This document shows, one piece after another, positions 10,032 to 46,897 of a DNA stretch of 64,000 nt. The stretch lies in the NCBI RefSeq assembly GCF_000466425.1, contig NZ_KE992088.1, forward strand, positions 1 through 64,000, given 5' to 3'. Position 1 is the stretch's first letter. Each line of letters opens with the position of its first letter. A program made the position numbers and the translations under genes. This DNA is from Capnocytophaga sp. oral taxon 863 str. F0517 (GTDB lineage: Bacteria > Bacteroidota > Bacteroidia > Flavobacteriales > Flavobacteriaceae). The notes under the pieces are model-generated. The model was given only the letters and a program-made list of their open reading frames with translations, was not told the DNA's origin and did no database searches.

Positions 10032-10191
10032 CGCAAACATTCCTATCTGCTTGATTTCTGAAGCCCGACCAAAGGCTATACTACAAAGCAAAAGGAATGC
10101 CTACGCTATGGTAGGCATTTCCACTTCACTTTCCTGTAGTATTCAAAAATTGGTCGTTTTCAGAAATCAGGAAATGATAAAGCGAAACGCT
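10032..10191 (-). ncRNA. 160-nt structured RNA element, copy 1
   Basis: Read on the minus strand, the element begins with a conserved AGCGTTTCGCT mini-hairpin (10191-10181). It has a long outer stem (TGATTTCTGAA 10169-10159 with TTCAGAAATCA 10062-10052, plus CGACCAA with TTGGTCG), an inner stem TACTACA/TGTAGTA, and a terminal hairpin AATGCCTAC/GTAGGCATT. The same architecture and exact length recur at 46738-46897 on the plus strand with compensatory base changes. A promoter-like TAAATTTG lies ~50 nt upstream (10246-10239), and the 9321-9992 ORF starts ~40 nt downstream, so it may be a 5' leader RNA. No known family is recognised. Confidence 0.7.
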
Positions 10192-10238
10192 GTATGTCTT
10201 TTATATTATGTTCTCTTAATTCACTCTTTGAGAGGGTA

Positions 10239-10267
10239 CAAATTTACAAAAAATTTTATTGTTACAA
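10239..10267 (-). promoter_or_regulatory. Putative promoter of the RNA leader, copy 1
   Basis: On the minus strand, TAAATTTG (10246-10239) matches the -7 box, with TTG (10267-10265) 18 nt upstream. Transcription from here would give a leader of ~240 nt ahead of the ATG at 9992. The stretch from 10268 to 10393 shows only an imperfect inverted repeat (about 10337-10404) near the M23 gene's end. Confidence 0.5.
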
Positions 10268-10393
10268 TTTTTTTTGAATATTTTTTTATTCTACCTTACT
10301 AATTTACATGAGCTACAAGCTCTTCTGATGTAGACACTAGCTAAAGTCACTGAATACCTGCAAGCGAGTATGTGACTCGTCGTTAGTTGCTAT

Positions 10394-12118
10394 CTACGGT
10401 TTGTAGACCAATGGAATGGTAAAGGTGCTTTCATTCCCCACTTTGTCGGCAACGGTAAGGGTAAAGGTATAGTCTTCCTCGGGAGTGAAGTAGCGATCGG
10501 CGAGGGTAAAGAAGAGCATCTTCTGCTTGTGTTCGTACTCCATCAGTACCCACTTGCCGTTGAGGGTGGCAGAGAAACTACCTATACCACTGAAGTCATC
10601 GGTAATGTTGAACTTGAGTTTGTCGAGCTTGGCTACATTATTCTTCGTCTTGGAGATATTCAGGGGCTTTATCTCTGGGGCTTTGGTGTCAGTGGTTAGG
10701 ACAAAGCGGCCTAAGGTCTTGATCTTAGCCGAAAGGATATTATCCTTGCGGTAGGTATATTGGTAATATTTCTTAGGTGTTTTCCCCTTTACGGAAGCGA
10801 TACATACATATGGGAGTTGTGCCTGGGTATATCGGGAGGCATCAAAGACGATATTGTACTGCTTCTGAAGGGGTTGGGTCGGTGCCATAACCAAGAGGGT
10901 GTCTCCTTTTTGCTTTACATCCACAAAAGTATCATGAAAGAAGGTATCTTCAGGGATATAGACGGTCATATTGTCCGTTTTGTACATATTATCTCGCTTG
11001 GCAACCAAGGGAGTACCCTTATTTACAGGGCGAAGGCCAGTGATAGGTTCCTTTTTCCCATCTATTGTCAGGTTAAGAGTGGTTACATTCTGGTTGAAGT
11101 CCTCTATTTTAACCTCTACAAGGTAAGTCATCCCATCCTCCACTTGGATGATGCCATCACTCTCGGGAGGTGTGGTATAGATAGAGAGCTTGTTATGAGG
11201 TTCGCGGTAAAGGTGCTGTACACGTGCTCCTGTCTTGATATAGAGCGGGAAGTCGATCAAGGTATTAAGGTAAGGATCCTCCCCTTTGACCAGCTCATCA
11301 AAGGTATAAGAAAGCTTTTCGGAGCCATTGACCCAAAGGGAAATACGATACACCCCATAGGTATTGCGAGTACCATTCATCTTATCCAAGGTATATACCC
11401 CCAGGCCTATACGCCCTTGGGCATTGATTTTGGAAGTGAGGTAACCCTCCCCTTTTTTATCCTTTCCTAAGAGTACATCGCGTTCCTCTTGCACCCCTTC
11501 GATCGCCGATTCCTCTCCAATGGGATAGGCTACGAGCTTGTACACTTGGGGGGCAATATCATCCTGAGAGGGATAGCCGAAGAGCAAAGGATTGAAGGCA
11601 TTGGTGGTTTGGGTATCGCGAATTTCAAAATGCAGATGCGGGCCTCCGCTGCCACCTGTATTCCCACTAAGGGCTACCCAATCCCCTTTTTTGACAGGAA
11701 AATCAGTGGGCTTGAACTCTATATCCACATCGAATTTCTCCAAAAGGTATTGGCGTTGCTTGACAAATTTTTCTATCTCGGGAGCAAACTTCTGCAAGTG
11801 CGCGTAGACGGTGGTATAGCCATTGGGGTGGTCTATATACATGACCTTTCCATAGCCGTAGGTACTCACCTTGATACAAGAGACAAAACCCTCCGCAGCG
11901 GCATATACCTTAAGCCCCTCCTTACCATCGGTTTTGATATCCAAGCCACCATGGAAGTGGTTAGGGCGCAATTCGCAGAAATTCCCTGCATAGGAGAGGG
12001 GAATATCCAGGGGCGAACCGAAATAATCCTTAGGAAACTCCCTTTGTGAGGCTACCTGCTGCTGGGCATACAAAAGAGAAAAAGAGAAAGAAAAAAATGC
12101 AATAAGAAACCTTAGCAT
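10394..12118 (-). CDS. M23 family metallopeptidase (peptidoglycan hydrolase type)
   Basis: This 574-residue protein starts with a signal peptide (MLRFLIAFFSFSFSLLYAQ). The LytM/M23 domain occupies about residues 35-170, with HxxxD zinc ligands in HFHGGLDIK (H56, D60) and the HLH motif in GGPHLHFEIRD (H161, H163). An insertion of ~35 residues separates the two halves. The ~400-residue C-terminal part is beta-rich and ends in Ig-like strands (FRSGIGSF-like, YTFTLTVADKVGNEST). This architecture is common in Bacteroidota and implies a periplasmic or outer-membrane peptidoglycan endopeptidase. The lipoprotein gene at 12124-13059 ends 6 nt upstream, so the two probably form an operon. Confidence 0.9.
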   Translation of the reverse strand: MLRFLIAFFSFSFSLLYAQQQVASQREFPKDYFGSPLDIPLSYAGNFCELRPNHFHGGLDIKTDGKEGLKVYAAAEGFVSCIKVSTYGYGKVMYIDHPNGYTTVYAHLQKFAPEIEKFVKQRQYLLEKFDVDIEFKPTDFPVKKGDWVALSGNTGGSGGPHLHFEIRDTQTTNAFNPLLFGYPSQDDIAPQVYKLVAYPIGEESAIEGVQEERDVLLGKDKKGEGYLTSKINAQGRIGLGVYTLDKMNGTRNTYGVYRISLWVNGSEKLSYTFDELVKGEDPYLNTLIDFPLYIKTGARVQHLYREPHNKLSIYTTPPESDGIIQVEDGMTYLVEVKIEDFNQNVTTLNLTIDGKKEPITGLRPVNKGTPLVAKRDNMYKTDNMTVYIPEDTFFHDTFVDVKQKGDTLLVMAPTQPLQKQYNIVFDASRYTQAQLPYVCIASVKGKTPKKYYQYTYRKDNILSAKIKTLGRFVLTTDTKAPEIKPLNISKTKNNVAKLDKLKFNITDDFSGIGSFSATLNGKWVLMEYEHKQKMLFFTLADRYFTPEEDYTFTLTVADKVGNESTFTIPLVYKP

Positions 12119-12123
12119 AATTG

Positions 12124-13059
12124 TTAGTTGTTAGTCGTTAGTTGTTTAAGAGAATCTATATGTTTTTCAAGGGTTTTACTATTATAGAAGTCTATACACT
12201 TCATGATAATAAGATAGGTTTTTGCTGTATCTCCTTCTAAGGGTTTAGCTTCATATGGTTTTTGATGCCACTTCTCTACAAGCATGCTCAGCGCTGGAAT
12301 TTCCTTTGTAAGGCTACTATCCAAAGCACTACTATAAGCGGCTATGCTATTATCAAAAGCCAAATGATATTGGTCAGGCGCTTGCTGGCTGATTTGTTCC
12401 GCTTCATACTCCATACAATTACAAAAGGCTATATTTTTAAGCAGCGACCCTTTGTCCTCTATTGTTTTATGTTTTTTCTGTAAGAGAGGTCTCTTGTAAT
12501 AAGGAGCAGGCGCTGTTTTTGTATCAGGAGTTATATACTGCTGATTGTCTGCATATCGCTCTTTTAGCTCTTTTCTTACCGAATCCAAATACTTCTTTAG
12601 CCCCTCACTATTGTAGAAATCCAAGCACTTCATATAAGTAGGATATGCTTTTTGTGGTGTATTCTTTTGATAAATATTGTAATAAGGCTTGTCTAACCAT
12701 TGGCTTACGAGCCTATCAAGGGTAGGATTTGCTACGATCCACTCCAAATCTAAATTACTACACTGTACATACCCCCCTAAAGTGCCATCTGGTATCCAAG
12801 TATAGGTATGAGGGTTTTGCTTTTTTATACGTTCGTGTTCTTGCCCTAAGCACTTACAGAAAGCCACATTTTTAAGCATCAGGATATCATCCTCTAAGGT
12901 CTTATAGGGCTTCATGGTAAGTATCTCCTGCTGATCTATAGCTTCAGGCGGGGTAAAACTCTCTTGAGGAGGTGTTTTTTGAATCCTCTGCTCATTACTT
13001 TTTCTATCAGAACAACTTAATAAGCCAATAAAGAGCAATATAAACAAACTATTTTTCAT
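12124..13059 (-). CDS. Lipoprotein with a duplicated Cys-containing domain
   Basis: The frame opens at 13092, but the -7 box TACCTTTG (13097-13090) overlaps that start. The ATG at 13059 gives a proper lipoprotein signal (MKNSLFILLFIGLLSCSDR, lipobox LLSC) and 311 residues. Two tandem copies of one domain are visible: YKTLEDDILMLKNVAFCKCL...MKCLDFYNSEGLKKYLDS (about 60-170) and HKTIEDKGSLLKNIAFCNCM...MKCIDFYNSKTLEKHIDS (about 200-305). Each has CxC plus a later Cys, so disulfides are likely. The C-x(n)-C-x-D-x-Y pattern recalls Tai4-type T6SS immunity proteins, but only weakly. It sits directly upstream of the M23 peptidase, so it may modulate or protect against it (inference). Confidence 0.7.
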   Translation of the reverse strand: MKNSLFILLFIGLLSCSDRKSNEQRIQKTPPQESFTPPEAIDQQEILTMKPYKTLEDDILMLKNVAFCKCLGQEHERIKKQNPHTYTWIPDGTLGGYVQCSNLDLEWIVANPTLDRLVSQWLDKPYYNIYQKNTPQKAYPTYMKCLDFYNSEGLKKYLDSVRKELKERYADNQQYITPDTKTAPAPYYKRPLLQKKHKTIEDKGSLLKNIAFCNCMEYEAEQISQQAPDQYHLAFDNSIAAYSSALDSSLTKEIPALSMLVEKWHQKPYEAKPLEGDTAKTYLIIMKCIDFYNSKTLEKHIDSLKQLTTNN

Positions 13060-13089
13060 ACATTGTAACTCATAGTTCAGAATTTTCTG

Positions 13090-13097
13090 CAAAGGTA
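13090..13097 (-). promoter_or_regulatory. -7 box upstream of the duplicated-domain lipoprotein
   Basis: TACCTTTG on the minus strand (13097-13090) matches TAnnTTTG. Transcription would start near 13083, which decides in favour of the ATG at 13059 over the upstream start at 13092. Confidence 0.6.
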
Positions 13098-13201
13098 CTA
13101 ATTATTTTTCAGAACCGAGCGTATTACTATCAAAAAAATCTATAGATTTATGAGTTATAATTCCTTTTTTTGTAGTAATTTTGCTCTCAAAAAAAAGACT
13201 T

Positions 13202-13663
13202 ATGAAAATCAGTTGGGGTACCGGCATATTGCTGGCTATACTGGCCTTTTCGGGCTTTATCATGTACTTTTTTGTCATCACCTTGGTGGATAAGAAATAC
13301 GACCACGAGCTGGTTACGGAGAACTATTATGCTCAGGAGCTAGACTTTCAAAAGAATATAGATGCTGAAAAGGCAACCCTTGAAGCTCATATGCAGGTGG
13401 ATCTCTCCTACAGAGAGGGTGCCAAGGAGGGTATCCGCTTGGATTTTCCTACCGTGGTAACTGGTAAGGAGGTCATTGGGGTGATTTTCTGCTATCGCCC
13501 CTCGGATAGCAAGTTAGATTTTACGCTCCCTATCACTACCCTTGATGGTTGTTCGCTGGTCATTCCGGACAACTTACTAAAGGCTGGGCGCTGGAATATC
13601 CGTGTGGAATATGCCTTTGAAGGGAAGAACTACCTAAGCCTATCAGACAAAGTCAATTATTAG
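13202..13663 (+). CDS. fixH: FixH family protein (cytochrome cbb3 oxidase maturation)
   Basis: The product is a 153-residue protein with one N-terminal transmembrane segment (WGTGILLAILAFSGFIMYFF). The family signature VDKKYDHELVTENYYAQELDFQ follows (seen as KKYDHELVTENYYAQEL), then a periplasmic beta-domain. The frame extends to a TTG at 13181, but that codon lies inside the -7 box TAATTTTG (13176-13183), so ATG 13202 is used. FixH helps assemble cbb3-type oxidase, probably through copper loading. The SafE-like gene follows with no spacing. The oxidase genes themselves are not next to it: the upstream neighbour is on the other strand. Confidence 0.85.
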   Translation: MKISWGTGILLAILAFSGFIMYFFVITLVDKKYDHELVTENYYAQELDFQKNIDAEKATLEAHMQVDLSYREGAKEGIRLDFPTVVTGKEVIGVIFCYRPSDSKLDFTLPITTLDGCSLVIPDNLLKAGRWNIRVEYAFEGKNYLSLSDKVNY

Positions 13664-14362
13664 ATGTATCTGCTTGCTTTCACCTTAGGGTTATTGGGCA
13701 GCCTGCACTGCGTGGGTATGTGTGGGCCCATTGCCCTTCTTGTCCCTATGCAAAGACAACGCAAGGGGTACCGCTACTTGCAGTTAGCCATTTATTTCAC
13801 AGGTAAGACTCTGGCTTATAGCCTAATAGGATTGCTTTTCGGAGTGGTCGGAGAAGGGCTTTTTATAGCCGAATACCAGCAGGAGTTCTCCATCTTGGCT
13901 GGTATTATCATGATAGGAATGGGGATTTTTTCGCTCTTTCATATCTCCATAGAAGGCGTAGGGAACCCATTGCTCAAAGGGTTTGCCCTCTTGAAGCAGG
14001 CCTTAGGTAAGCAACTCACCAAAAAGACCCTTATCAGTTCCCTCCTTATTGGTTTTCTCAATGGCTTATTGCCCTGCGGCTTGGTCTATACAGCTCTTTT
14101 TGGGGCTTTGGCTATGGGCAGCCTATGGGGTAGTATGGGCTATATGACTGCTTTTGGGCTGGGTACCATTCCGCTGCTACTGCTTTTGGTACTTTTGGGA
14201 GATTTCTTACCCATAGCCCTACGTCGTCGGCTTAACCAATGGTTGCCGATGGTCGTAATTATAGTTGGTATCCTTTTTATATTGCGTGGCTTAGGATTAG
14301 GAATCCCTTACCTCTCCCCTTCGGATATGCATCTGCTACTACATCCTAAAGCAGATTGTTAG
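13664..14362 (+). CDS. SafE/TauE-like (UreH domain) membrane protein, cbb3 maturation context
   Basis: The 232-residue protein has six or so transmembrane helices. Its N-terminus is typical of the DsbD_2/UreH-domain family found next to fixH in Bacteroidota (AFTLGLLGSLHCVGMCGPIAL, key residues HCVGMCGP). A second internal LLPCGLVYTAL motif mirrors the first. The CGMCGP/LPCG cysteines suggest metal or thiol transport, and relatives are annotated as sulfite exporter-like or copper-related. The ATG directly follows the fixH stop codon (TAG ATG), so the two are translationally linked. It probably serves the same oxidase maturation pathway (inference). Confidence 0.8.
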   Translation: MYLLAFTLGLLGSLHCVGMCGPIALLVPMQRQRKGYRYLQLAIYFTGKTLAYSLIGLLFGVVGEGLFIAEYQQEFSILAGIIMIGMGIFSLFHISIEGVGNPLLKGFALLKQALGKQLTKKTLISSLLIGFLNGLLPCGLVYTALFGALAMGSLWGSMGYMTAFGLGTIPLLLLLVLLGDFLPIALRRRLNQWLPMVVIIVGILFILRGLGLGIPYLSPSDMHLLLHPKADC

Positions 14363-14373
14363 GCAAAGAGGGC

Positions 14374-15126
14374 TTAGAAATATTCTATCTGTCTTTCGAT
14401 AATCGTTATTGGCTTACCATCTTGGTATTCGAAGCGGCCTATCCAGTTTCCTTTCTTATCGTACTTATACTCAAAGCTATTTTTCTGTGCGTAATTTCGG
14501 TTGAGTAAGGAGAGTATTCTATCATAGTCTCCATGGCTGTTGTAGCGATATCGGGCTTTGTTTTGGGTGGTTTGTTGCTGGTCGATAATATGCTGTTCCT
14601 CTTCAAAAAGTCGGCCTTTGGAATCGTAAGTGGAGGTAATCTTGGCCGAAAAATCCTCTCGAAGCAAGCTACTTTCTATCTGTCTTCCCTCCTGGTCATA
14701 CACATAAAAAGCCGCATATTGTAGTGTTCCCTCCTGATTATAAGCCTCTTCCTTGGTCACGTTGCCACTCCCATCACAGTTGAAGACGGTCACCCCGATA
14801 CGCTTTCTATCGGGAGCTATATGCAGCTTATATTTCTTTAGTTTCTGCTTGTCATACACATATTCATAACGCAGGGTTTCGGCATTGTGCTCGTCGAAGA
14901 AGATTTCTTTGATAATATTCCCCTGTGCATCGAAAGTCTTTTCGATATTCATCTCGGCTATAAGTCCTCCCTTTTGAGCTAACTGACCCATTTCCTTAAC
15001 ATAATACCCCCTGATACGGAGTGTTCTGACACCTTTTTGAAGGTGTTCCCGCTGCCAATCCGTGATATCTTGCCCATAGGAGTAAGCCGCTAATAAGAAA
15101 AGTAGGTACCACCCAAGCCTATTCAT
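14374..15126 (-). CDS. Secreted short YD-repeat protein
   Basis: This 250-residue protein has a signal peptide (MNRLGWYLLFLLAAYSYGQD) and no lipobox. From about residue 60, strands such as KTFDAQGNIIKE, YEYVYDKQKLKK, YVYDQEGRQIES, STYDSKGRLFEEE, YRYNSHGDYDR and FEYKYDKKGNWIGR repeat every ~25-35 residues. That is the RHS-like YD pattern. It ends in IIERQIEYF, similar to the ends of the 8136 and 16520 proteins (RREITYY, YRYEIAYY), so the three exported proteins form one family. It is convergent with the SafE-like gene (11-nt gap). Function is unknown. Confidence 0.75.
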   Translation of the reverse strand: MNRLGWYLLFLLAAYSYGQDITDWQREHLQKGVRTLRIRGYYVKEMGQLAQKGGLIAEMNIEKTFDAQGNIIKEIFFDEHNAETLRYEYVYDKQKLKKYKLHIAPDRKRIGVTVFNCDGSGNVTKEEAYNQEGTLQYAAFYVYDQEGRQIESSLLREDFSAKITSTYDSKGRLFEEEQHIIDQQQTTQNKARYRYNSHGDYDRILSLLNRNYAQKNSFEYKYDKKGNWIGRFEYQDGKPITIIERQIEYF

Positions 15127-15140
15127 AATAGAAACCGAGT

Positions 15141-16448
15141 TTATCTATTTTGTTTGCGTAGTTGAGCTGCCTTAATACGTTTGAGCCGATGCATTACCTC
15201 ATCTCTATACAAGGCGTTTTTGGCTACCTTACCCACCGTAAGTCCCTGAACGAGGATAGAGAAGAGTACCACTATATAAGTAACCTGTAAGAGGGTTTCC
15301 TTCATCGCCCCTTGATCTTGAGGGATAGAAAGTACCAAAGCAATGGAGACCCCTCCACGCACGCCCCCCCACACCATGGTAATAAGGGAACCTCGCGAAT
15401 AGGAGCTAACCTTGCGCAAGATGGTTTGTGCAGGAATATAGATGGCCAAGGCACGCCCTAACAGACATACCACTATAGCTATAGCACCCAAAAGGAACTG
15501 TTTGTCCAAATTATCAATCAGTAGCATCTCGAAGCCGATAAAAAGGAAGAGGATCGCATTCATGATCTCATCCACGATTGCCCAAAACTTACTTAGGTAA
15601 TCCCTGTTCTCCTCACTACTGGCTTTTTTGCCTATATTTCCTACAAAAAGACCGGCAATCACCATAGCCAAAGGCGAAGACACATGAGAAGCCTTCGCTA
15701 TCAAGAAACCTCCCATCACCACCGCAAGGGTTACCAATACACTTACGTGGTAGTCATCCGCTTTTTTCATCATCTCAGAGGCCAGCCAACCGAGGATTAC
15801 CCCTAAGAAGATACCCCCACCCGCCTCTAAGAGGAAGAGCTTGGTAATGGCATTGAACGACGGCTCGAAAGAAGCATCAGTTGCCAGCTTGAGCACTACG
15901 GCAAACATTACTACCGCTACCCCATCGTTGAAGAGAGACTCACCGGTAATCTTCGTCTCGATACGTTTAGGCACATTGGCCTGCTTGAGAACCCCCAAGA
16001 CCACAATGGGATCCGTAGGGGAGATAAGTGTACCGAAGAGCAAGCAATATACATAAGGAATGTCAATCCCTATCCAATGCGCAATATAATAAAGTAGTGC
16101 AGAAACAAAAAAAGCAGAAAGTACCACACTCACTGTAGCATAGGTAAAAATAGGGAGCTTATATTCCTTCAAATCCGAGACATTGATATGTAGTGCCGCT
16201 GCAAAAAGTAGGAAATTAAGCATAGCCCCCATAAGGATTTCTGTAAAGTCAAATCCCTGTAAGAGACTCTCCAATTTATGAGAAAGTCCTGCAAAAATGG
16301 TCTCTCCAAAAAGGCGTATCCCAACAGAAACAATCATGGCAACCACCATAATTCCAATGGTCATCGGAAGCTTTATATAACGGACATTCACATAAGAGAA
16401 TATGGCAGCCAAGACTATAATTACTGAAAAAGCGTAGTATAATTCCAT
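15141..16448 (-). CDS. CPA1-family Na+/H+ (cation:proton) antiporter
   Basis: This 435-residue inner membrane protein has about 12 hydrophobic segments. The family core is clear: [18 protein letters not shown] and [17 protein letters not shown] in the ion-binding region (the ND pair), a conserved GGFL helix, and [18 protein letters not shown] near the C-terminus. These identify an NhaP-type antiporter that exchanges Na+ or K+ for H+ to control pH and salt. It lies between two YD-repeat genes on the same strand. No regulatory domain is attached. Confidence 0.93.
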
Positions 16449-16519
16449 AGTATTTTTTTATTTGGGCAAAAATACGAAAATAATGACAAACGACAAAAGA
16501 CTAAAGCCAATTTTATTAC

Positions 16520-17653
16520 TTAATAATACGCTATCTCGTATCTATATAATTCTATAGGAACCTCATTTATGACAAGTCTTTCTATAGGATTATGATAGAT
16601 ATCCTCCTGGTAATAATACGCTCTGCTCTGGATTTCTCCTTCTTGACTGACAAAAACCTCTTTTACAAGATACTGACACTCATCATAATATTCGCTCCAA
16701 GAAAGCCTTCCATCTATAAAACCAGTCTTGCTTAGAAGATTCCCCTTTGAATTATACACATAAGAAGTATGCCCTTCTGTAGCTCCTTGTGCTATTATGC
16801 TATCACTGCTAAGATACTTATCTCTTATTTCAATGATTTTTCCATTAGTATCATATCTATAATATCTTATAGCATTATTATATATAAGTGTTCCTTCTTC
16901 ATACTGCGTTGTGCTCAATTCATAAATATATTCTTCAATGACATTACCCGATTTATCATATTTCCATGTGTTTTCTTTTTTTATATCTTTATATTTGTCT
17001 ATTACATATTCTTTTTTACAACTAATTTTACGATTTTCAGCATTGTATTCATACATTTCTTTATAAAAAAATTTATTTTTATCATTAAATGAAATTTTTT
17101 CTATAATATTACCATACTCATCATAAGTATATATAACTTTTTCCCCTTTGAGCAAATCCGAATCGCATTCTTCTTCCTCTATTAACCTATTTTTATCATC
17201 ATAAATATAATTCGTATAATATATATACTTATATTGATTATTATCTTTTTGAGGAAAATCCCCTTCTTTGAAGATTTTTTGCATCAATTTTCCTTTTTCA
17301 TTATACAAATATTTACGCTCGGATATATAATACAAAGAATCCGTTTGTCCTTTCACTTGCTGATATTCCTTTACTATATTTCCTTTAGAATCAAAGAGGT
17401 ATTCTATCTCAAAGTAAGGTATCTCACTCCATTGGGAAAAAATAGAATCCTTTTGAGATAGCTTTTGGAAGACAGGGGTATAACTACGCTCCTTATAACG
17501 CTTTACCTGCCCTTTGAGTGAGGGCTTATTAGGGATTTTTGTGATGACCTCTTCTTGGTGCGACAAAGCCTCTTTTTTGTAGGAGGTCACTATCTGTGGG
17601 GAAGCACAACCCAAAAGGGAAAGATAAATCACTATAAAGGCAGCCTTTTTCAT
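16520..17653 (-). CDS. YD/RHS-like repeat lipoprotein
   Basis: The frame opens at 17689, but ATG 17653 begins a lipoprotein signal (MKKAAFIVIYLSLLGCASPQ, lipobox LLGC), and a TATCTTTG -7 box lies at 17677-17670. The 377-residue product is almost entirely repeats: YLFDSKGNIVKEYQ, YLYNEKGKLMQKI, YIYDDKNRLIEEEE, YTYDEYGNIIEKI, WKYDKSGNVIEEY, YRYDTNGKIIEIR and YVYNSKGNLLSKT. It ends LYRYEIAYY. It belongs with the genes at 8136 and 14374. Envelope location is predicted; function is unknown. Confidence 0.78.
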   Translation of the reverse strand: MKKAAFIVIYLSLLGCASPQIVTSYKKEALSHQEEVITKIPNKPSLKGQVKRYKERSYTPVFQKLSQKDSIFSQWSEIPYFEIEYLFDSKGNIVKEYQQVKGQTDSLYYISERKYLYNEKGKLMQKIFKEGDFPQKDNNQYKYIYYTNYIYDDKNRLIEEEECDSDLLKGEKVIYTYDEYGNIIEKISFNDKNKFFYKEMYEYNAENRKISCKKEYVIDKYKDIKKENTWKYDKSGNVIEEYIYELSTTQYEEGTLIYNNAIRYYRYDTNGKIIEIRDKYLSSDSIIAQGATEGHTSYVYNSKGNLLSKTGFIDGRLSWSEYYDECQYLVKEVFVSQEGEIQSRAYYYQEDIYHNPIERLVINEVPIELYRYEIAYY

Positions 17654-17860
17654 AATTTGCTTTTTTGGGCAAAGATAATAAAAAAACAAGCTCTAGTTTC
17701 ACAAATTATACAACTATGTTTCCTATACAGAAGAGGCAGGTGATACACTTTTTAGACTTCGTCATCTTGAACAATTCGGCTTGTATTTTCTGAGGTTGCC
17801 ATTGGCCACTGCCCAAAGGGCTTGAATAAGTTGTTTTTTTCACAAGTTATAAGGTTATAG

Positions 17861-17896
17861 AACTTAAGCGTTATAGCTGGCTATAACGCTTAAGTT
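17861..17896. repeat. Perfect 17-bp inverted repeat in the 17654-18110 gap
   Basis: AACTTAAGCGTTATAGC (17861-17877), a 2-nt TG spacer, and its exact complement (17880-17896). There is no T-run right after it. It lies between the divergent YD-repeat lipoprotein and the restriction endonuclease. The rest of the gap is AT-rich; apart from the lipoprotein -7 box and the restriction promoter nothing else is recognised. Confidence 0.8.
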
Positions 17897-18048
17897 TTAG
17901 AATGCAAAATCACAACATTACAGAAGTAAAAGCAATACGTTTCAACAATAAAGTAATGTTAATTAACAATAACACATTACTTATCGTTCGTCGTTAATAA
18001 TTTGAGTGCAAACTAATCGTTAATCATTCAAAACTAAGTATTGAAGTG

Positions 18049-18079
18049 TTTGCCAATTGCTTTTATTTTCGTACTTTTG
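18049..18079 (+). promoter_or_regulatory. Promoter of the EcoRI-type restriction operon
   Basis: TTTG at 18049-18052, a 19-nt spacer, then TACTTTTG at 18072-18079: an exact match to the Bacteroidota promoter layout. Transcription would start near 18086, so the ATG at 18111 is the start, not the codon at 18057. Confidence 0.8.
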
Positions 18080-18110
18080 CCCCATAGGAGAATTATATTC
18101 CCTTCCAAGT

Positions 18111-18956: not shown

Positions 18957-18957
18957 C

Positions 18958-19941: not shown

Positions 19942-19944
19942 AAA

Positions 19945-36335: not shown

Positions 36336-36419
36336 AGTATAGTTATTTTTTCTGCAAAGATACGACTTTAATTATAAATAACAAATTACAGAACTGGCCT
36401 CTGACCTTTAGTTGTTGTC

Positions 36420-37634: not shown

Positions 37635-37665
37635 AGGCTGTGGAAAAAGCCCTTCTTTTTCTCCT

Positions 37666-37673
37666 TACCTTTG
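37666..37673 (+). promoter_or_regulatory. nrdG -7 box
   Basis: TACCTTTG matches TAnnTTTG. Transcription would begin near 37680, so the GTG at 37699 is the likely nrdG start. No good TTTG lies at the -33 distance; the DnaA-box-like words cover that area. Confidence 0.6.
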
Positions 37674-37698
37674 TCTTACCACAAAAAAAGATATAGCC

Positions 37699-38154: not shown

Positions 38155-38204
38155 CCAATGACTAATGACTAGTGACTAATAACTAACCACTAATCACTAA
38201 AAAC
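38148..38204 (+). repeat. Heptameric array between nrdG and nrdD
   Basis: aaTGACC aaTGACT aaTGACT agTGACT aaTAACT aaCCACT aaTCACT aaaaact: eight 7-nt units. They fill the intergenic space between two genes of one operon, so this array cannot simply be a terminator. Confidence 0.7.
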
Positions 38205-38221
38205 TTATAAATCAACTTTTT

Positions 38222-39997: not shown

Positions 39998-40006
39998 TGA
40001 CTAATA

Positions 40007-40058
40007 ACAAATGACGAGTGACTAACCCTAATAGAGGTATTAGTCACTCGTCATTTGT
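40007..40058. terminator. Inverted heptamer array forming a 19-bp hairpin between nrdD and DedA gene
   Basis: acaaatgacgagtgactaa (40007-40025) pairs perfectly with its complement at 40040-40058 around a 14-nt loop. Here the heptamer-type array is present in opposite orientations, so the arms fold into a convergent terminator. The right array continues to 40078. Confidence 0.8.
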
Positions 40059-40074
40059 CATTTGTCGTTTGTCA

Positions 40075-40728
40075 TTATCTCTTAAATAGTTTGATAATCA
40101 CCGGAGCGGTAGTAATCAGTACGATAAAGAGAACGATTAGCTCCAAGTGTTTTTTGAGGTCAATGCCGAATTGGTCGATAAAGATCTTATCCAAATAGTG
40201 TCCCATGAAGACCAGAGAGAACGACCAGGCGACGGCTCCTATAATATTGTATACCATGAACTGACCTCGTCGCATGCCTACGATTCCGGCTACGATAGGG
40301 GCAAAAGTACGTACAATAGGGAGGAAACGCGCGGCGATCACCGCTACCGCACCATGCTGCTTGTAGAAGACATCGGCCTTGAGGAGGTATTTTCGCTTGA
40401 AAAAAAAGGAATCCTTTCGCTCATAGAGGGCATGCCCACTGCGACGGCCAAACCAATAGCTGACCATATTCCCTATGATGGCTGCCAGAGCGATGGAGGA
40501 GGCTATGATGGTGGTATCGAGCAGGTCACTACCGGTAATACCAAAGGTATCCTTGACCATAGGAACCGCATAGATGCCAGAGATGAACAAAAGACTATCC
40601 CCGGGGAGGAAAAAGCCTATGAAAAGTCCTGTCTCAGCAAAGATGATGAATAATACGAGCCAATATCCGCCCAACTTTATATAAAACTCTGGATTAACAA
40701 GATCAGTCCAGCTATTAAAATGTTCCAT
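40075..40728 (-). CDS. DedA family membrane protein (VTT domain)
   Basis: The 217-residue protein shows the DedA/VTT signature: FIIFAETGLFIGFFLPGDSLLF near residue 30, GNMVSYWFGRRSG, and RFLPIVRTFAPIVAGIVGM with the conserved R-F-x-P-x-x-R. Four to five transmembrane or re-entrant helices. Family members are lipid scramblases or flippases, for example for undecaprenyl phosphate or phospholipids. It follows the TPR gene by 39 nt on the same strand. Confidence 0.92.
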   Translation of the reverse strand: MEHFNSWTDLVNPEFYIKLGGYWLVLFIIFAETGLFIGFFLPGDSLLFISGIYAVPMVKDTFGITGSDLLDTTIIASSIALAAIIGNMVSYWFGRRSGHALYERKDSFFFKRKYLLKADVFYKQHGAVAVIAARFLPIVRTFAPIVAGIVGMRRGQFMVYNIIGAVAWSFSLVFMGHYLDKIFIDQFGIDLKKHLELIVLFIVLITTAPVIIKLFKR

Positions 40729-40767
40729 AATGTCTGATTCTTCTTTTAGTATTTCAATTCTATTAGG

Positions 40768-41901
40768 TTATTCTGCCAGGTCGGTGTGTATGTCATAAGA
40801 ATAGTCCACCAAGTCCATTGCCTGTTCGTATATTTGTTTGGCTTCTTCGGTACGTCCGATATGGTTGTATATATCAGCACAGCGGCGCAAGAAGATAGGG
40901 TTGTCCCCTTCGTTAAGCAATACCTTTGCGACGTATTTTTCCGCTTTTTCATAGTCATTTTCTCTGGCATAATACTCTACCAAAGCCAGCCAGGCCTTGC
41001 TGGACTGGGGGTCTTCATGTACCGCCTTGAAATAATACTGTTCGGCCATCGCTCTTTCCCCTAATTTCTCATAACAATGCCCTATGCGTAGGTATGCAAA
41101 GGAAGAAGGATCGTCCAGAGAGAGGGTCACCTTGTAGTTTTCAATAGCCGCCTTGTAGTTTTTAAGGCGTTCGAGTACCTTTCCTTTTTCGAAATAAGCC
41201 CCAGTGAAAGTGTTGTCGCTTATGATTGCAAAATCGAAAGCACGGAGTGCCTCCTGATAGTTTTTCTGTAGGATATATTGCCTTCCCAAGCTATGCCAAG
41301 CCACCTCACAATAAGGATTGTTGTCTAAGAAAGCGGTAAGGAACTGTATGGCCTGCTGGTGCTCGCCCAAGAAGTCGAAGCAGTGCATCAGGTGCTGCAA
41401 GGCGAAGTAGTCTTCAGGGTTGCGTGCTATGCAACGCTTAAAATATTTCTTAGCCAAGGCATGTTGCTCCATATATACATATTCCATGGCGATCAGAGCA
41501 TCGATTTCGGAAGGGGTATCGGAATAAGCGGCTGCATATTGCAGGAGTTCTATAGCCTTATGATGGTCATTTTTCTTGGAATAAAGGTGGGCGCGTTGTA
41601 CATATATATCTGCATTATAGGGCTCCTGAGGGATCACCTCATCGAGGATTTCTCCGGCCTGTTGCAGGTTGTCCTCTTGGATCAGCATCTCGGCTTGTAG
41701 AAGCCTCAGGGCAGTGACAAAAGGGAATTGGCTTAGGGCAATTTCTAAGGCTTGCTTGGCCTTGGCATATTTGGCATTTTCGAAGTAATAGAGGATAATT
41801 TCCTCATACTGATAGCTATCGAAAAATCCTACTTTATGCTGGTCGAGTAAGGATTCGTACCGAGAAATCACCTCCTTGCGTTCATTATTCTTTGAATACA
41901 T
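40768..41901 (-). CDS. Tetratricopeptide-repeat protein
   Basis: The frame opens at 41946, but the ATG at 41901 (MYSKNNERKEVISRYESLL) is the more likely start, giving 377 residues. About ten TPR units cover almost the whole chain, for example AEQYYFKAVHEDPQSSKAWL and AYLRIGHCYEKLGERAMAEQ. There is no signal peptide, so it is a cytosolic scaffold. It probably forms an operon with the DedA gene. The partner is unknown. Confidence 0.85.
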   Translation of the reverse strand: MYSKNNERKEVISRYESLLDQHKVGFFDSYQYEEIILYYFENAKYAKAKQALEIALSQFPFVTALRLLQAEMLIQEDNLQQAGEILDEVIPQEPYNADIYVQRAHLYSKKNDHHKAIELLQYAAAYSDTPSEIDALIAMEYVYMEQHALAKKYFKRCIARNPEDYFALQHLMHCFDFLGEHQQAIQFLTAFLDNNPYCEVAWHSLGRQYILQKNYQEALRAFDFAIISDNTFTGAYFEKGKVLERLKNYKAAIENYKVTLSLDDPSSFAYLRIGHCYEKLGERAMAEQYYFKAVHEDPQSSKAWLALVEYYARENDYEKAEKYVAKVLLNEGDNPIFLRRCADIYNHIGRTEEAKQIYEQAMDLVDYSYDIHTDLAE

Positions 41902-42054
41902 TGTTTTCCTTAAGTAATTATCTTGTAGCAAGCACCTCATTACCAAAAGGTTAGGCGCTTTATAAAGTGTATTTTTTCAAGGAGCTAAAATACTACTTTT
42001 TATCCTATCTTCGACAAAGTTGGTTATAACTTTCTCATTTTGTTGATAACTTTA

Positions 42055-42082
42055 AAAAGGCTGCCCCGAAGGACAGCCTTTT
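42055..42082 (-). terminator. Hairpin terminator after the glycogen fusion gene
   Basis: AAAAGGCTG (42055-42063) pairs with CAGCCTTTT (42074-42082) with extra CC/GG pairs inside, giving a hairpin with A- and T-runs on either side. An additional array of CAAAACT-type heptamers with dyad symmetry fills 42084-42152. Confidence 0.75.
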
Positions 42083-42083
42083 A

Positions 42084-42152
42084 GTTCTTAGTTTTGAGTT
42101 TTTAGTTTTGAGTTACTCAAACTAAAAATTCAAAACTCAAAACTCAAAACTC
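42084..42152. repeat. CAAAACT-type heptamer array with dyad symmetry
   Basis: Left half reads TTAGTTTTGAGTT-like and right half AACTCAAAACTAAAA-like, joined near 42113; the right half has three exact AAAACTC units. A related stretch (AAAACTC, AAGACTT) lies at 2375-2400 before htpG. Confidence 0.6.
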
Positions 42153-42154
42153 TT

Positions 42155-45100
42155 TTAGAGCCACTTAACCAATGGGAAATCCTGACGGTGAGGCAATAGC
42201 TCATGCTTAGGATAGAGGCGTAGGGCGATCATAAAGAGGCCTGCATCCTCGGTAAGCGCGGAGAGCTTATAGGTAGCCACACGCCCAGAGAAGGAGATGA
42301 GTTCGGCTTGGATAAGTTCCACCACCTTCACCTGTCCGTCTTCCTTGCGTGTAACGACCAATTCCAAGCCTACATCCTCAGGGGAGAGTTCGCTTAGGTA
42401 GAGCTCGATGGTTGCCTCATAGCGATTGCCCAAGGTGATGAGTTCACGATCACGCCTAGGAGCCACTACTTTTTCCACACGCAAGTGCGCCCATTCTTGG
42501 CTTACCTTCTTCTTCCATTGGGAGAGGGCAATAGCCTTTTCGAAGTGATTGCCACGGAGGAGCTTAGAGCGTTTTTGTTGTGGATAATAGTATTGGTTCT
42601 CATAATCGGTAAGCATACGATAGGTGGTGAACTGAGGGGCTACCTTTCCTATGGTATTTTTGATAAAGCTACACCACTCTATAGAGATTCCTTTGCTATC
42701 CTTATTATAGAAAGTAGGTGCGATTTGGTCTTCTATGATGTTGTAGATCATCTCTGCATCGAGTTCATCTTGGTACTTTTGGTTCTCGTAGGTACGTTCT
42801 TGAGGAAGCATCCAACCGGCATCCTTACGATAACCTTCTACCCACCAGCCATCGAGTACGCTAAAGTGCATTACCCCATTCATAGCGGCCTTTTCCCCAC
42901 TGGTACCGGAGGCTTCGAGCGGACGTGTAGGGGTATTCATCCATACATCCACCCCTTGGATAAGGGTACGCGCTAAGTCCATATCGTAGTTGGAAAGGAA
43001 GATGATTTTCCCTAAGAAACGCGGTTGCTTGGATATTTCCACGATATGTTTGATGAGGTCTTGGCCAGCCTTATCGGCAGGGTGTGCCTTTCCGGCAAAG
43101 ATAAACTGCACGGGGCGTTCTGGGTTGTTGACAATCGCATCGAGCCTATCGAGGTTGGTAAAGAGCAAGTGGGCACGCTTGTAGGTGGCAAAACGACGGG
43201 CAAACCCGATGGTCAGTACATCATCGCGGAGGGTATCGAAGACCTGTACTACCTCACGAGGTGTAAAGTAGGTAACGTTCTGACTATCTGTTAGGTTATG
43301 CTTTACCCGACGTACGAGCTTGGTGCGGAGTTCCTGCTTGATTTGAGCTACTTTCTCATCCGGTACATTATAGATTCCCTCAAAAGAGGCTGCCGTATAG
43401 GCGCCCGCTTCCTTTCTAAAATATTTTTCTTCTATTTCCTTCCACAGAGGCGAAGTCCAGGTAGGACGGTGTACCCCATTGGTTACATAACTGATATGGA
43501 GTTCTTCCGGCAAGTAACCCTTCCACATATCCTTGAAGATATCTCGGCTCACTTCACCATGGAGCATGCTCACTCCATTGACCTCTTGAGAGAGATTGGC
43601 CGCCAAGAAGCTCATGGAGAATTTCTCGTGCGGATCGTTTACATTAATTTTACCAAGAGCCAAAATCTGTTGCCAGTCCACATGGAGCTTTTCGGCATAG
43701 TCGCCGATAAAGGCACGTAGCATCGTTTCCTCAAAGGCATCATGCCCCGCAGGTACTGGAGTATGGGTGGTAAAGAGCGAGGAGGCTCGTACCACTTCCA
43801 CCGCTTCGGAGAAGGAAAGGTGGTATTCGTTGATGAACTTATTGAGGCGTTCCAGACCGATCAAGGCGGCATGCCCTTCGTTGCAATGGTAGATATCGAA
43901 AGAGAGGCCTAAGCTGCGGAGAATCTTGATACCTCCCAAGCCCAAGAGCATCTCCTGTTTGAGTCGGTTTTCCCAATTACCTCCATAGAGGTGATGGGTG
44001 ATGGTACGATCTTCATCGTTGTTATCCTCATAATCGGTATCGAGCAAGTAAAGTTCGATACGACCTACATCCACGCGCCATACACGGGCATAGAGCGTAC
44101 GACCGGGCAGGTCGAGACTGATCTTAAGCCATTTGCCTTCCTTGTCCAATACTGGGGAGACCGGAATTTTAGTAAAGTCCTGCGCCTCATACTCGGATTC
44201 TTGGTTTCCGAAGGCAGATATTTTTTGAGTGAAATAACCATAACGATAGAGCAAGCCCACCCCTGTAATCTTGGTAGCCTTGTCACTGGCCTCCTTAAGG
44301 TAGTCCCCTGCCAAGATACCCAAGCCCCCTGAATAAATCTTTAAGGAAGAGTGCAAGCCAAATTCCATACTGAAGTAAGCGATGGCCGGATCGGTCATTT
44401 CCTTCTTCTTCTCCATATAGTTAAGGAAGTTGGTATATACCTTATTGAGGCGTTCCATGAAGTCCGGATCATTTTCCAAGGCCTTGAACTGACTCACAGA
44501 GATAGAGTCGAGCAAGAGGATAGGGTTCTTATGAACGCGGTGCCACTCTTCGGGGTCAATACTCTTGAAGAGCTGTTCGGCCTCTTCGTTCCAGCACCAC
44601 CAAAGGTTTTTGGCCAATTCCTCGAGGGCTTTGAACTTCTCAGGAGTGGAGCGGTGTACGATCACACTACGCCAGAAAGGCGTATTGACCACACGAGACT
44701 GCTCCCATACGGCTGTATCGGTATCCACTACAGGAAGGTCGGCCAATCGAGGTTCTAACTTATTAAGGGTCAGTTCATAAGCTTTTTGATAGAACGCATA
44801 GAACTTATCCCAAAGGGCTGCCCTGCCTATCTGCTGTGCATCTTCCCATAGCGCTTCGTAAGCGGTAGGCGAAAGGCGTGCTATCTTCTCTATTTGGCTC
44901 ACCACTCCTGTGACTACCTCTTGGTAGTTGCTATCATCGCGACGAAGTACCCTCAAGGCTAAGTTTTCATTAGGAAAATGAGTCAAAGCCCAAGTACCGA
45001 AGCCCGCTAAGGTGGTGGTTATGGTAGGCACCCCGAAGCACAAGCTCTCAAAAGGTGTATAGCCCCAAGGCTCGTAGTAGGAAGGGAATACGGTAAGGTC

Positions 45101-46327
45101 GATTCCGGTAAGCAGCTCATAGTAAGAAAGGTCGAACACCCCATCATTGCCCAAGAGATAGCTGGGGCAATAGACTACCTTCACCTTGTCCTGTAGCTGG
45201 TTGAAGAGCTGCGCCTCACGGAGCTTGGAGACGATGATATTCTGATACTCATCCTTCACCAAATGGGTTGTATAGGTCTGCCCAATAGTATTAAGCCCCT
45301 CATAAGCAGCGGGAATAAGGATAAAGGCCACCACTTGCTGATCGAAGGTGGCATCCTGATTGAGGTATCTTAAGGCATCGATGAAGACATCTATTCCTTT
45401 GTTTCTGAACTCATTGCGCCCGCTGATAGCTACAAAGAAAGGTTTTTTCTCAAAAGTAGCCCCTGTCACGCTCTGGGCAACCTCTTGGAGCTTAGCGGCT
45501 GCTTTCTTTCGTTTTTCAAGGAAGCTGGTACGGTCGCTTAGGTGTCCTTCGTCGAAGCCATTAGGGGTCACCACCTCAGGGATACGGCCTAAGAAGTGGG
45601 CTGCCTCACGAGCCGTAATATCACTTACTGTAGTAAAGACATCGGCTGCCAAAGCGGCCTTGGCCTCCAAGCCGTGCTTGTGTTGTACAGAGAAGCGGGC
45701 TGCCAGCTCAGAAGGCTTGTACTCTTCCAAGTAGTTATAAAGTGCCCAACCATTGCCCGCTATACTGCGGCCTAAGACAGTGGCATGGGTGGTGAAGACC
45801 GTTCCCACATGAGGGAGTTCCTGCTTGAGATAGAGTAAGGCGGTACCCGTCATCCATTCGTGGAAATGAGCAATCGCACGCTCACGCACCCCTACTTGGA
45901 AATGTACAAAACTCTCCAAAACCTTTCCCACGGCATAGCCAAAGAGGGCAGATTCGGTAAAGTCCCAGGAAGCATCGAGCGAATCGAGCTGTTGGGTGTT
46001 CCAGTAGTAGGTAAGAATTTCATTTTTTTCACTGATATAATGGGAGAAATCCACTAAAATAGCAATTGGTTTCCCTTTTATATTCCAATAACCCGTCCTT
46101 ACCCTTAGGCCTTCCTCACGAGTACGCGCCAGCCATGAAGGGAAAAGGGATTGATCTTCGATAAATTCAGGGGTTTCCCTGTGTTGCCATAGGTCTGGGC
46201 CTATAGTGATATACTTGTCGGCAAACTTCTCACGTACCAAAGTAGCACGTGTAGCCAATACGGTATGTATGCCCCCAATCTTGTTGCATACTTCCCAGCT
46301 AACTTCAAATAAATAATTCGGATTCAT
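42155..46327 (-). CDS. Glycogen synthase (GT3-like)-alpha-glucan phosphorylase (GT35) fusion
   Basis: The 1390-residue protein joins two opposing activities. Residues ~1-545 match eukaryote-like GT3 glycogen synthase (NYLFEVSWEVCNKIGGIHTV, and FPSYYEPWGYTPFESLCFGV with the E-x7-E pattern). Residues ~560-650 are DUF3417 (LEELAKNLWWCWNEEAEQLF). The rest is GT35 alpha-glucan phosphorylase (AYFSMEFGLHSSLKIYSGGL, NEGHAALIGLERL, GTSGEKAAMNGVMHFSVLDG). The ATG at 46327 (MNPNYLFE) fits the family better than 46345. A TATATTTG -7 box lies at 46375-46368. The fusion is common in Bacteroidota. It implies glycogen or similar glucan storage in the cytosol. Confidence 0.93.
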   Translation of the reverse strand: MNPNYLFEVSWEVCNKIGGIHTVLATRATLVREKFADKYITIGPDLWQHRETPEFIEDQSLFPSWLARTREEGLRVRTGYWNIKGKPIAILVDFSHYISEKNEILTYYWNTQQLDSLDASWDFTESALFGYAVGKVLESFVHFQVGVRERAIAHFHEWMTGTALLYLKQELPHVGTVFTTHATVLGRSIAGNGWALYNYLEEYKPSELAARFSVQHKHGLEAKAALAADVFTTVSDITAREAAHFLGRIPEVVTPNGFDEGHLSDRTSFLEKRKKAAAKLQEVAQSVTGATFEKKPFFVAISGRNEFRNKGIDVFIDALRYLNQDATFDQQVVAFILIPAAYEGLNTIGQTYTTHLVKDEYQNIIVSKLREAQLFNQLQDKVKVVYCPSYLLGNDGVFDLSYYELLTGIDLTVFPSYYEPWGYTPFESLCFGVPTITTTLAGFGTWALTHFPNENLALRVLRRDDSNYQEVVTGVVSQIEKIARLSPTAYEALWEDAQQIGRAALWDKFYAFYQKAYELTLNKLEPRLADLPVVDTDTAVWEQSRVVNTPFWRSVIVHRSTPEKFKALEELAKNLWWCWNEEAEQLFKSIDPEEWHRVHKNPILLLDSISVSQFKALENDPDFMERLNKVYTNFLNYMEKKKEMTDPAIAYFSMEFGLHSSLKIYSGGLGILAGDYLKEASDKATKITGVGLLYRYGYFTQKISAFGNQESEYEAQDFTKIPVSPVLDKEGKWLKISLDLPGRTLYARVWRVDVGRIELYLLDTDYEDNNDEDRTITHHLYGGNWENRLKQEMLLGLGGIKILRSLGLSFDIYHCNEGHAALIGLERLNKFINEYHLSFSEAVEVVRASSLFTTHTPVPAGHDAFEETMLRAFIGDYAEKLHVDWQQILALGKINVNDPHEKFSMSFLAANLSQEVNGVSMLHGEVSRDIFKDMWKGYLPEELHISYVTNGVHRPTWTSPLWKEIEEKYFRKEAGAYTAASFEGIYNVPDEKVAQIKQELRTKLVRRVKHNLTDSQNVTYFTPREVVQVFDTLRDDVLTIGFARRFATYKRAHLLFTNLDRLDAIVNNPERPVQFIFAGKAHPADKAGQDLIKHIVEISKQPRFLGKIIFLSNYDMDLARTLIQGVDVWMNTPTRPLEASGTSGEKAAMNGVMHFSVLDGWWVEGYRKDAGWMLPQERTYENQKYQDELDAEMIYNIIEDQIAPTFYNKDSKGISIEWCSFIKNTIGKVAPQFTTYRMLTDYENQYYYPQQKRSKLLRGNHFEKAIALSQWKKKVSQEWAHLRVEKVVAPRRDRELITLGNRYEATIELYLSELSPEDVGLELVVTRKEDGQVKVVELIQAELISFSGRVATYKLSALTEDAGLFMIALRLYPKHELLPHRQDFPLVKWL

Positions 46328-46439
46328 TGTTATTTCTTCTTTCATGAATTATGGTTGTATCACCTTGCAAATATAATCATTTTTAAGGGAGGAAAAAAGA
46401 AAAACGACTGATTTTTAATTGTCTTTTTTCAATAAACTG

Positions 46440-46558
46440 ATTATCAATGATTAATGATCAATGGCTAATGGTTAATGATTAATGGTTAATGATTAATGGT
46501 TAATGATTAATGACTAAGTTCTAATAATTAACAATTAACCATTAATAATTAACAATTA
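46440..46558. repeat. Long heptamer array (ATTAATG-type)
   Basis: About 16 units of 7 nt: atgatta, atgatca, atggcta, atggtta, atgatta and so on, turning into ataatta/acaatta near the end. It is the longest array in the window and marks the left edge of the accessory island. No gene overlaps it. Confidence 0.75.
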
Positions 46559-46561
46559 TGG

Positions 46562-46595
46562 CGACTTATCCTGTCCAGCTTGGCATCTATCTTTG
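46562..46595 (+). promoter_or_regulatory. Relic or diverged island promoter without a gene
   Basis: TGTCC at 46572-46576, exactly 11 nt, then TATCTTTG (46588-46595): same geometry as three other island promoters, but the left half-site has decayed (CGACT instead of GGTCA). An ATG follows at 46598 but the frame closes after 7 codons (MWKRKSI). A gene may have been lost here. Confidence 0.5.
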
Positions 46596-46737
46596 CCATG
46601 TGGAAGAGAAAAAGTATATAAATCCATAGATTTTTATAGGCAAAAAGGAAATACATGTCATAAAAATTTGTATATTTGTCGCAAATTTTAAAACACTTAA
46701 ATATTTGAGATAAACATACCCAAAAATATAATGATAT

Positions 46738-46897
46738 AGCGTTTCGCTTTGATTTCCTCGCTCCGGAATACGACCAAACATTTCAATAGCACAAGGAAAG
46801 CAGAGGACGAAATGCCTGCCTTATAAGCGCAGGTATTCCTTTTTGCTTTTGTGTTAGCCTTTGGTCGGGCTCCGGACGAAGTAAAAGGAAGCCTGCG
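46738..46897 (+). ncRNA. 160-nt structured RNA element, copy 2
   Basis: It has the same order of parts as 10032-10191: AGCGTTTCGCT mini-hairpin; outer stem TCCGGA (46762-46767) and CGACCAAA (46771-46778) with TTTGGTCG (46860-46867) and TCCGGA (46871-46876); inner stem TAGCACA/TGTGTTA; terminal hairpin AATGCCTGC/GCAGGTATT. Compared with copy 1, paired bases change together in all three stems while loops such as GCGTTTCGC and GGTCGGGC are kept. A -7 box TATATTTG lies at 46671-46678, and the Asp-box gene starts 45 nt downstream. It is probably a transcribed leader or a small RNA. Confidence 0.72.

Follow-up and report, generated by a model that had tools for sequence, protein, structure and literature searches.

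A structured RNA element occurs twice in the 64,000-nucleotide stretch of Capnocytophaga sp. oral taxon 863 str. F0517 analysed here (contig NZ_KE992088.1, positions 1 to 64,000; hereafter the window). Our comparison of its copies suggests that the element works as a transcription attenuator, placed in the 5′ leaders of unrelated genes and operating without a leader peptide, a reading based on sequence to which we give a probability of roughly 0.78. Each copy can adopt either of two predicted folds: a long rod, made of helices P1, P2 and P3 and an apical stem in which segment 2 pairs with segment 3 (2:3); or two hairpins, in which segment 1 pairs with segment 2 (1:2) and segment 3 with segment 4 (3:4). 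Comparison across copies supports each of the folds and shows them to exclude one another; it also supports the leader position and, in most copies, the placement of a T-run beside 3:4. The fold logic thus appears well supported; that 3:4 terminates transcription and that read-through is the default, we infer.

Architecture of the two copies

An earlier note on this DNA had described two elements with common sequence blocks, each preceded by a TAnnTTTG box and followed by an open reading frame (ORF) in the same orientation. On re-reading the sequence we find the positions and common blocks of both elements to be correct, as are the boxes (10246–10239, minus strand; 46671–46678, plus strand) and the ORFs, which start at 9992 (minus) and 46943 (plus). 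The unit length of 160 nt had been drawn too short: the element extends to the T-run (10030–10025; 46907–46911) and measures 167–174 nt. The AGCGTTTCGCT hairpin does exist as a small hairpin, and it also begins an alternative helix of 17–23 pairs; the picture of a single fold had overlooked this second, mutually exclusive one. Both copies fold better than shuffled sequences (z −7.10 for copy 1 and −4.07 for copy 2; 0 of 200 shuffles as good). Their parts, with the basis of assignment in brackets, are as follows.

10025..10191, minus: copy 1, whole predicted bistable leader element including the U-tract (sequence, folding, alignment)
10239..10246, minus: copy 1, TAnnTTTG promoter-like box, TAAATTTG (sequence)
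10167..10191, minus: copy 1, segment 1, partner of segment 2 in the two-hairpin state (constrained folding, swap tests)
10150..10156, minus: copy 1, CGACCAA, 5′ strand of P2 in the rod and part of the loop of hairpin 1:2
10114..10135, minus: copy 1, segment 2 (constrained folding, swap tests)
10086..10107, minus: copy 1, segment 3, partner of segment 2 in the rod and of segment 4 in the terminator-like stem
10063..10076, minus: copy 1, GCC-TTTGGTCG-GGC hairpin within the 3:4 loop, its own loop containing the 3′ strand of P2
10031..10052, minus: copy 1, segment 4, 3′ strand of the terminator-like stem (constrained folding, swap tests)
10025..10030, minus: copy 1, U-tract, immediately 3′ of segment 4 (sequence)
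9321..9992, minus: copy 1, downstream ORF, 223 aa, without a match in Pfam (E 0.01) or PADLOC (E 0.001)
46738..46911, plus: copy 2, whole element including the T-run (sequence, folding, alignment)
46671..46678, plus: copy 2, TAnnTTTG promoter-like box, TATATTTG (sequence)
46738..46760, plus: copy 2, segment 1 (constrained folding, swap tests)
46771..46777, plus: copy 2, CGACCAA, 5′ strand of P2 or loop 1
46794..46816, plus: copy 2, segment 2 (constrained folding, swap tests)
46825..46848, plus: copy 2, segment 3 (constrained folding, swap tests)
46857..46870, plus: copy 2, GCC-TTTGGTCG-GGC hairpin, with the 3′ strand of P2
46879..46900, plus: copy 2, segment 4 (constrained folding, swap tests)
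46907..46911, plus: copy 2, T-run (sequence)
46943..47293, plus: copy 2, downstream ORF, 116 aa, BNR/Asp-box repeats (PF02012)

The stem of the GCC-TTTGGTCG-GGC hairpin varies among homologues, reading GGTT/AACC in L018 and other letters in distant copies (L with a number denotes a locus in our collection).

Covariation of the rod

The earlier note had read covarying stems from the two copies and proposed a covariance model, a search of Bacteroidota genomes and a statistical test of the covariation; the search has now been run with such models, homologues were found and the stems covary. In an alignment of 45 copies, standard pairs fill 96.4% of cells, G-U pairs are frequent and both partners change in 42 of 49 rod pairs; covariation scores 0.493, compared with 0.168 for shuffled controls (0 of 500 as high) and 0.047–0.091 for slid partners. 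Pair changes were also counted on 31 copies and lie far above both kinds of control. Since the 45-copy alignment was made to covariance model R2, i.e. fitted to the rod and biased towards it, more weight falls on alignment-free swap tests, in which own partners are compared with swapped ones. These were run on 39 non-redundant copies, reduced by similarity from a set of 48 that leaves out L085, L088, L089, the named Capnocytophaga contigs (largely the same genomes) and L055/L056 (duplicating L075/L079 in type or locus); they gave z −17.3 for P1, −15.2 for P3 and −11.2 for 2:3. The apical stem P4 alone was weaker in an earlier swap test (z −2.9). The three best copies score 35–40 bits on the reverse strand vs. 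215–219 forward, as expected for an RNA read from the element's strand. Within Capnocytophaga, P2 and its flanks are much less variable than P1 and P3.

Model R1, built on a plain alignment, had poor structure and was superseded by R2 and R3; a later source set omits L011, L012, L031, L055, L088 and L089, L012 because its reverse strand also passed. By eye, L024 compared with L013 and L037/L038 shows mosaic rods, with the P1 arms of one type around the P3/P4 interior of another, as if recombination had occurred at the conserved P2 blocks.

A second fold with a terminator-like hairpin

The alignment also reveals two further complementarities: the apical stem can pair through its 3′ strand with the 3′ end of the element, ahead of the T-run, and through its 5′ strand with the 5′ block. 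Under constrained folding two hairpins result, 1:2 with 17–23 pairs and 3:4 with 18–29 pairs, which are exclusive of the rod. Own partners are better than swapped ones in the 39 copies (1:2 z −9.3, 3:4 z −8.7; controls 2:4 z −0.3 and 1:4 z 0.2), in the 23 Capnocytophaga copies alone (z −4.6 and −4.5) and in the 16 copies from elsewhere alone (z −6.6 and −5.9). Ten later-found copies have the same helices with different letters (1:2 −5.2, 2:3 −5.4, 3:4 −5.5; controls −1.2 and 0.1; L134 excluded); as they were found by R3, which holds rod pairs only, 1:2 and 3:4 are independent in this set and 2:3, P1 and P3 are not. An outer stem formed simply by segments 1 and 4 was discarded, own partners being no better than swapped ones (z 0.2; narrower version z 1.2). 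One intended control, the whole 5′ part against the whole 3′ part, gave z −6.7 because it included the P1 arms; the other control of that run, segment 2 against the 3′ part, gave z −0.2.

Hairpin 3:4 looks like an intrinsic terminator, usually ending at a U-tract: the T-run begins 0–2 nt after the stem in 47 of 48 copies, copy 2 with 5 nt being the exception, in a count that accepts broken runs (TTGTTT, TTTGTC, CTCTTTTA) and weak distal pairs. The two hairpin loops, CGACCAA and UUUGGUCG, complement each other (CGACCAA / UUGGUCG), and the same bases form P2 in the rod. This loop pair is nearly invariant in Capnocytophaga and jointly changed elsewhere, to CTGGAA/TTCCAG (L057), CTGCCA/TGGCAG (L058, L139), CGGCAAA/TTTGCCG (L059), CTGGTA/TACCAG (L135, L137, L138) and CGGGAAA/TTTCCCG (L131).

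A possible order of events, and points against it

We propose that in the nascent RNA segment 1 would first pair with segment 2; as segment 3 emerges, segment 2 would shift to it while P1, P2 and P3 zip up the rod, and the rod would hold segment 3 off segment 4, so that no terminator forms and the gene is transcribed. Should hairpin 1:2 persist, segments 3 and 4 would pair just before the U-tract and transcription would stop. The contact between loops CGACCAA and UUGGUCG may start the strand exchange, and the setting of the switch would depend on what retains or releases hairpin 1:2, be it a protein, a ligand or the speed of RNA polymerase. In equilibrium prefix folding of six copies, 1:2 forms first and 2:3 takes over at about nt 120–130. 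The two-hairpin state is the lower in energy in L014, L017 and L092, and it is the unconstrained minimum-energy fold of L138, a later-found copy.

Several observations weigh against such an attenuator. In 45 of 48 copies the rod is the more stable of the two folds, with an energy advantage of as much as 16.9 kcal/mol (a comparison in which the forced 3:4 pairs may put the two-hairpin state at a disadvantage), and in the same prefix folding 3:4 reaches at most about one expected pair; the terminator would thus need hairpin 1:2 to persist kinetically, or else a helper. In the outermost stretch of 1:2 (its first 13 nt against the end of segment 2), own partners have no advantage in Capnocytophaga (z 0.1) and a weak one in the other copies (z −2.3, p 0.023); being nearly invariant, this stretch is no more than compatible with pairing there. 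The swap tests ignore the tree, though the control pairings share the same relatedness. In copy 2 the T-run follows only after the gap (5 nt by duplex), and termination may be weaker there; some 6 nt, by eye, separate the GC portion of the stem from the T-run in the L030/L025 and L035/L036/L031 groups; and broken T-runs occur in L018, L072, L086, L093, L132, L133, L135 and L138. Finally, the search for a leader peptide covers ATG starts only; among 48 copies, L017 alone has such an ORF over segment 1, apart from one of two codons in L041.

As a rival reading, it is possible, though doubtful, that the element is a ligand-binding riboswitch whose P2 core (GAAAWA-CGACCAA-UUUUU, AGCC-UUUGGUCG-GGCU) binds a small molecule that stabilizes the rod or hairpin 1:2. 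The low variability of P2 and its flanks within the genus speaks for this, and a signalling molecule would fit unrelated genes under one leader; however, P2 covaries in distant copies, so that its sequence is not strictly needed, the downstream genes have no visible common pathway, and, within the stretches scanned, no Rfam riboswitch scored as high as its cut-off on the element. A tentative and equally doubtful proposal of another kind is that a trans-acting factor binds the rod or hairpin 1:2 and controls attenuation or antitermination in the manner of TRAP, LoaP or PyrR. Segment 2 and the 5′ block AGCGTTTCGCTTT, which hardly varies, could offer a recognition surface, one leader serves unrelated genes, and, according to PMC12691694, a LoaP leader hairpin is needed for read-through of a leader terminator; against this, no linked gene was seen, upstream flanks differ at most loci, and no presence/absence search for a trans factor was made. 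Rather unlikely, in our estimate, is a self-contained RNA timer, a portable front end for acquired genes in which read-through depends on polymerase speed relative to the loop-loop-seeded exchange. If it were true, any gene behind the leader would be coupled to the physiology of the cell or to its state of infection with no need of a dedicated regulator, and in multi-copy genomes the complementary loops could let terminated leaders act on one another.

Leader position and downstream genes

In 45 of 48 copies the T-run is followed, at a distance of up to 172 nt, by a same-strand ATG ORF of at least 50 aa (exceptions L017, L025 and L033 (contig end)), and an antisense ORF of at least 100 aa occupies that place in one of the 48. 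The TAnnTTTG box is found within 140 nt upstream of 34 of the 48 copies, against a mean of 4.6 and a maximum of 12 in 200 shuffles, and 31 of 38 instances lie 55–99 nt before AGCG; TAnnTTTG is the −7 motif reported for Bacteroidetes in PMC7366714.

The box and the terminator-like 3′ end would also suit a small RNA, i.e. a terminated leader of about 220–260 nt (a length inferred from the promoter-like boxes) that acts in trans while the gene is incidental, and complementary loops common to the copies of a genome could act between them. We consider this improbable: 45 of the 48 copies stand just ahead of a same-strand ORF, and the anti-terminator fold kept by covariation would be needless in a plain small RNA. 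The earlier note had left the choice among a riboswitch-like leader, a processed small RNA and a mobile structured element. The first is the best of the three, being in keeping with the leader position, the promoter-like box, the covarying structure and the competing terminator-like stem; the small RNA is conceivable as the terminated product, and the mobile element is disfavoured by the results given below.

The earlier note had also called the downstream genes unrelated, and a comparison across copies bears this out, with no common pathway seen. The Pfam scan of downstream proteins comprised 31 entries, not all of them first genes and one entered twice. Type III Mod methylases lie downstream of L075 and L086 (by eye alike in L055, L070, L072 and L089), with a sub-cut-off methylase match at L099; further products are TssD/Hcp, barely over the cut-off (L041), an AHH-nuclease domain (L081), DUF805 (L027), DUF6140 (C10 copy) and, directly downstream of the C35 copy (L004:291-1382, minus), an IIGP-like GTPase (interferon-inducible GTPase family, PF05049) with weak LeoBC similarity. 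Others are lipocalin-type and leucine-rich-repeat (LRR)-type proteins, and several have no match. L134 is followed by a reverse transcriptase that matches PADLOC retron-type models; its frame opens about 566 nt after the element start, which leaves room for an RNA of its own. Kinship of the element to IscB/TnpB guide RNAs or to retron RNA was rejected on this spacing, on the differing downstream genes and on the lack of any linked nuclease gene seen.

Distribution and gene exchange

The genome of the strain (2.7 Mb, 103 contigs) holds four copies: besides the two in the window, C10 and C35 carry one each; four further rows of that search, at E 0.13–0.84, look like chance. A DNA search found the element in 10 of 20 Capnocytophaga genomes (34 matches, loci retrieved for 30), and R2 found 34 copies in 11 of the 20, with 0–7 per genome, a 35th row being the reverse-strand match of one copy. 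A search of 299 genomes of the family gave one convincing match outside the genus (E 2e-8); of seven matches at E 0.0025–0.009, the two inspected, L042 (tRNA-like by eye) and L043, look like chance. Five genomes outside the genus carry the element in a search of 395 genomes of the order, and R3, run over 395 genomes from the phylum with E values of up to 0.001 accepted, matched 18, the strain's own included; 11 loci among these matches were inspected, those of G523, G361, G913, G979, G693 and G377 being left out. A pattern scan of named genomes returned 39 stretches, with Capnocytophaga, Epilithonimonas, Chryseobacterium lathyri, Paenimyroides and Avrilella among the taxa; the named-genome pattern requires CGACCA and TTTGGTCG, so variants are under-sampled. 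Metagenome-assembled genomes matched by pattern belong to Flavobacteriaceae/Flavobacterium, Bacteroidales and Chitinophagales. A pattern match in Burkholderia (L085) was set aside as chance.

Among 30 loci of about 3 kb, some share the upstream flank and differ in the gene (L010/L011, L024/L026, L031/L035), and others share the gene and differ in the flank (L011/L022, L021/L026, L014/L023, L030/L034); these patterns suggest that the leader position stays while the gene behind it is swapped. Such exchange of neighbouring genes, and the patchy distribution with 0–7 copies per genome, could also be expected of a mobile structured element (a miniature inverted-repeat transposable element (MITE), a REP-like element or a recombination site) whose hairpins act as DNA. 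We regard this as very improbable. With boundaries assumed at AGCG and the T-run, there is no signal of a target-site duplication (longest shared word 4.19, with swapped flanks giving 4.16, p 0.44), and terminal inverted repeats are not evident either, with at most 8 of 14 terminal bases matching in a count without a shuffle control; the exact pattern has no match in viral contigs, and one query by blastn had none in phages and plasmids. The many G-U pairs and the strong link to a same-strand ORF argue against it as well.

Companion motifs and surroundings

The DUF805b RNA (RF02914), reportedly from a 2017 paper by Weinberg, shares the leader neighbourhood of the rod and differs from it as a separate 35-nt motif. 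It lies 10–106 nt 3′ of the rod in 19 of the 34 genus copies (16 over the cut-off) and, at the Rfam gathering score, downstream in 14 of 27 genus loci scanned; 47 of 66 DUF805b matches have no rod within 200 nt (50 of the 66 being over the cut-off). Its presence both with and without the rod shows the leader to be modular. In rod-less loci it can sit close behind a promoter-like box (e.g. L129, by eye). The rod itself does not match RF02914, and the Rfam scan found no DUF805b in the window. On the minus strand of L125, upstream of a DUF805b match, there is just the terminator-like half (segments 3 and 4 and the U-tract) with DUF805b; the 5′ half is lost or decayed, and the locus is a natural terminator-only control. 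About 20–50 nt 3′ of the rod in L132, L133, L135 and L138, a small hairpin with a GGRAC-containing loop and differing stem letters occupies the place that DUF805b has in Capnocytophaga; it was seen by eye, our own pattern scan returned none, and Rfam has no match at the site.

Upstream of copy 2, window positions 46456–46560 hold a run of AATGGTTAATGATTAATGG-type near-repeats. On its 3′ side, 47297–53554 contains several ORFs with repetitive YD-like text, a paralogue family in appearance, of which two (47297–48517 and 50117–51367) had no Pfam match; a PDDEXK_4 / PDC-S26-like ORF lies at 48579–49595.

Discussion

The leader RNA family described here is apparently undescribed. Rfam at gathering scores gave no match over the window, weak matches to copy 1 being far below the cut-offs; in scans that did not cover every copy (e.g. 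L019, L081 and L083 left out), no T-box or other leader family reached the gathering score on the element, and E-value scans gave sub-cut-off matches only. Literature searches returned no description of this RNA among the matches listed. A term search of the main text of PMC11109978, PMC2965389 and PMC8632094 found no Bacteroid-, Flavobact- or Capnocytophaga words, and PMC6429828 names Bacteroidetes once, for an endosymbiont. For Bacteroides thetaiotaomicron, passages of PMC7366714 mention 5′ UTR riboswitches and possible leader peptides, and not this element.

A strongly supported family of structured RNA without an Rfam match found, spread over the phylum, is of interest in itself. To our knowledge, few leader switches have been characterized in Bacteroidota; with restriction-modification methylases, a retron-type reverse transcriptase and secreted proteins downstream, this one may show how acquired genes are controlled there.

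Among known systems, the LoaP-dependent leader of the dfn operon (PMC12691694) likewise combines a leader hairpin with a leader terminator; the passages on it describe a small UNCG hairpin and no bistable rod, and LoaP is only a candidate link here. In the B. subtilis yxjA riboswitch, according to PMC9756952, a nascent helix likewise yields by strand exchange and termination is decided thereby; in our element, unlike riboswitches of that kind, the aptamer and ligand are only hypothetical and the P2 core can covary.

Both states of the proposed switch are readable from covariation, which makes tests of the mechanism direct. Trp-type attenuators set segments 1:2 and 3:4 against 2:3, and our element would share this four-segment alternation ending in a terminator-like stem; it differs in that no leader peptide was found, in that 2:3 lies within a long rod with three further helices, and in that one leader stands before unrelated genes.

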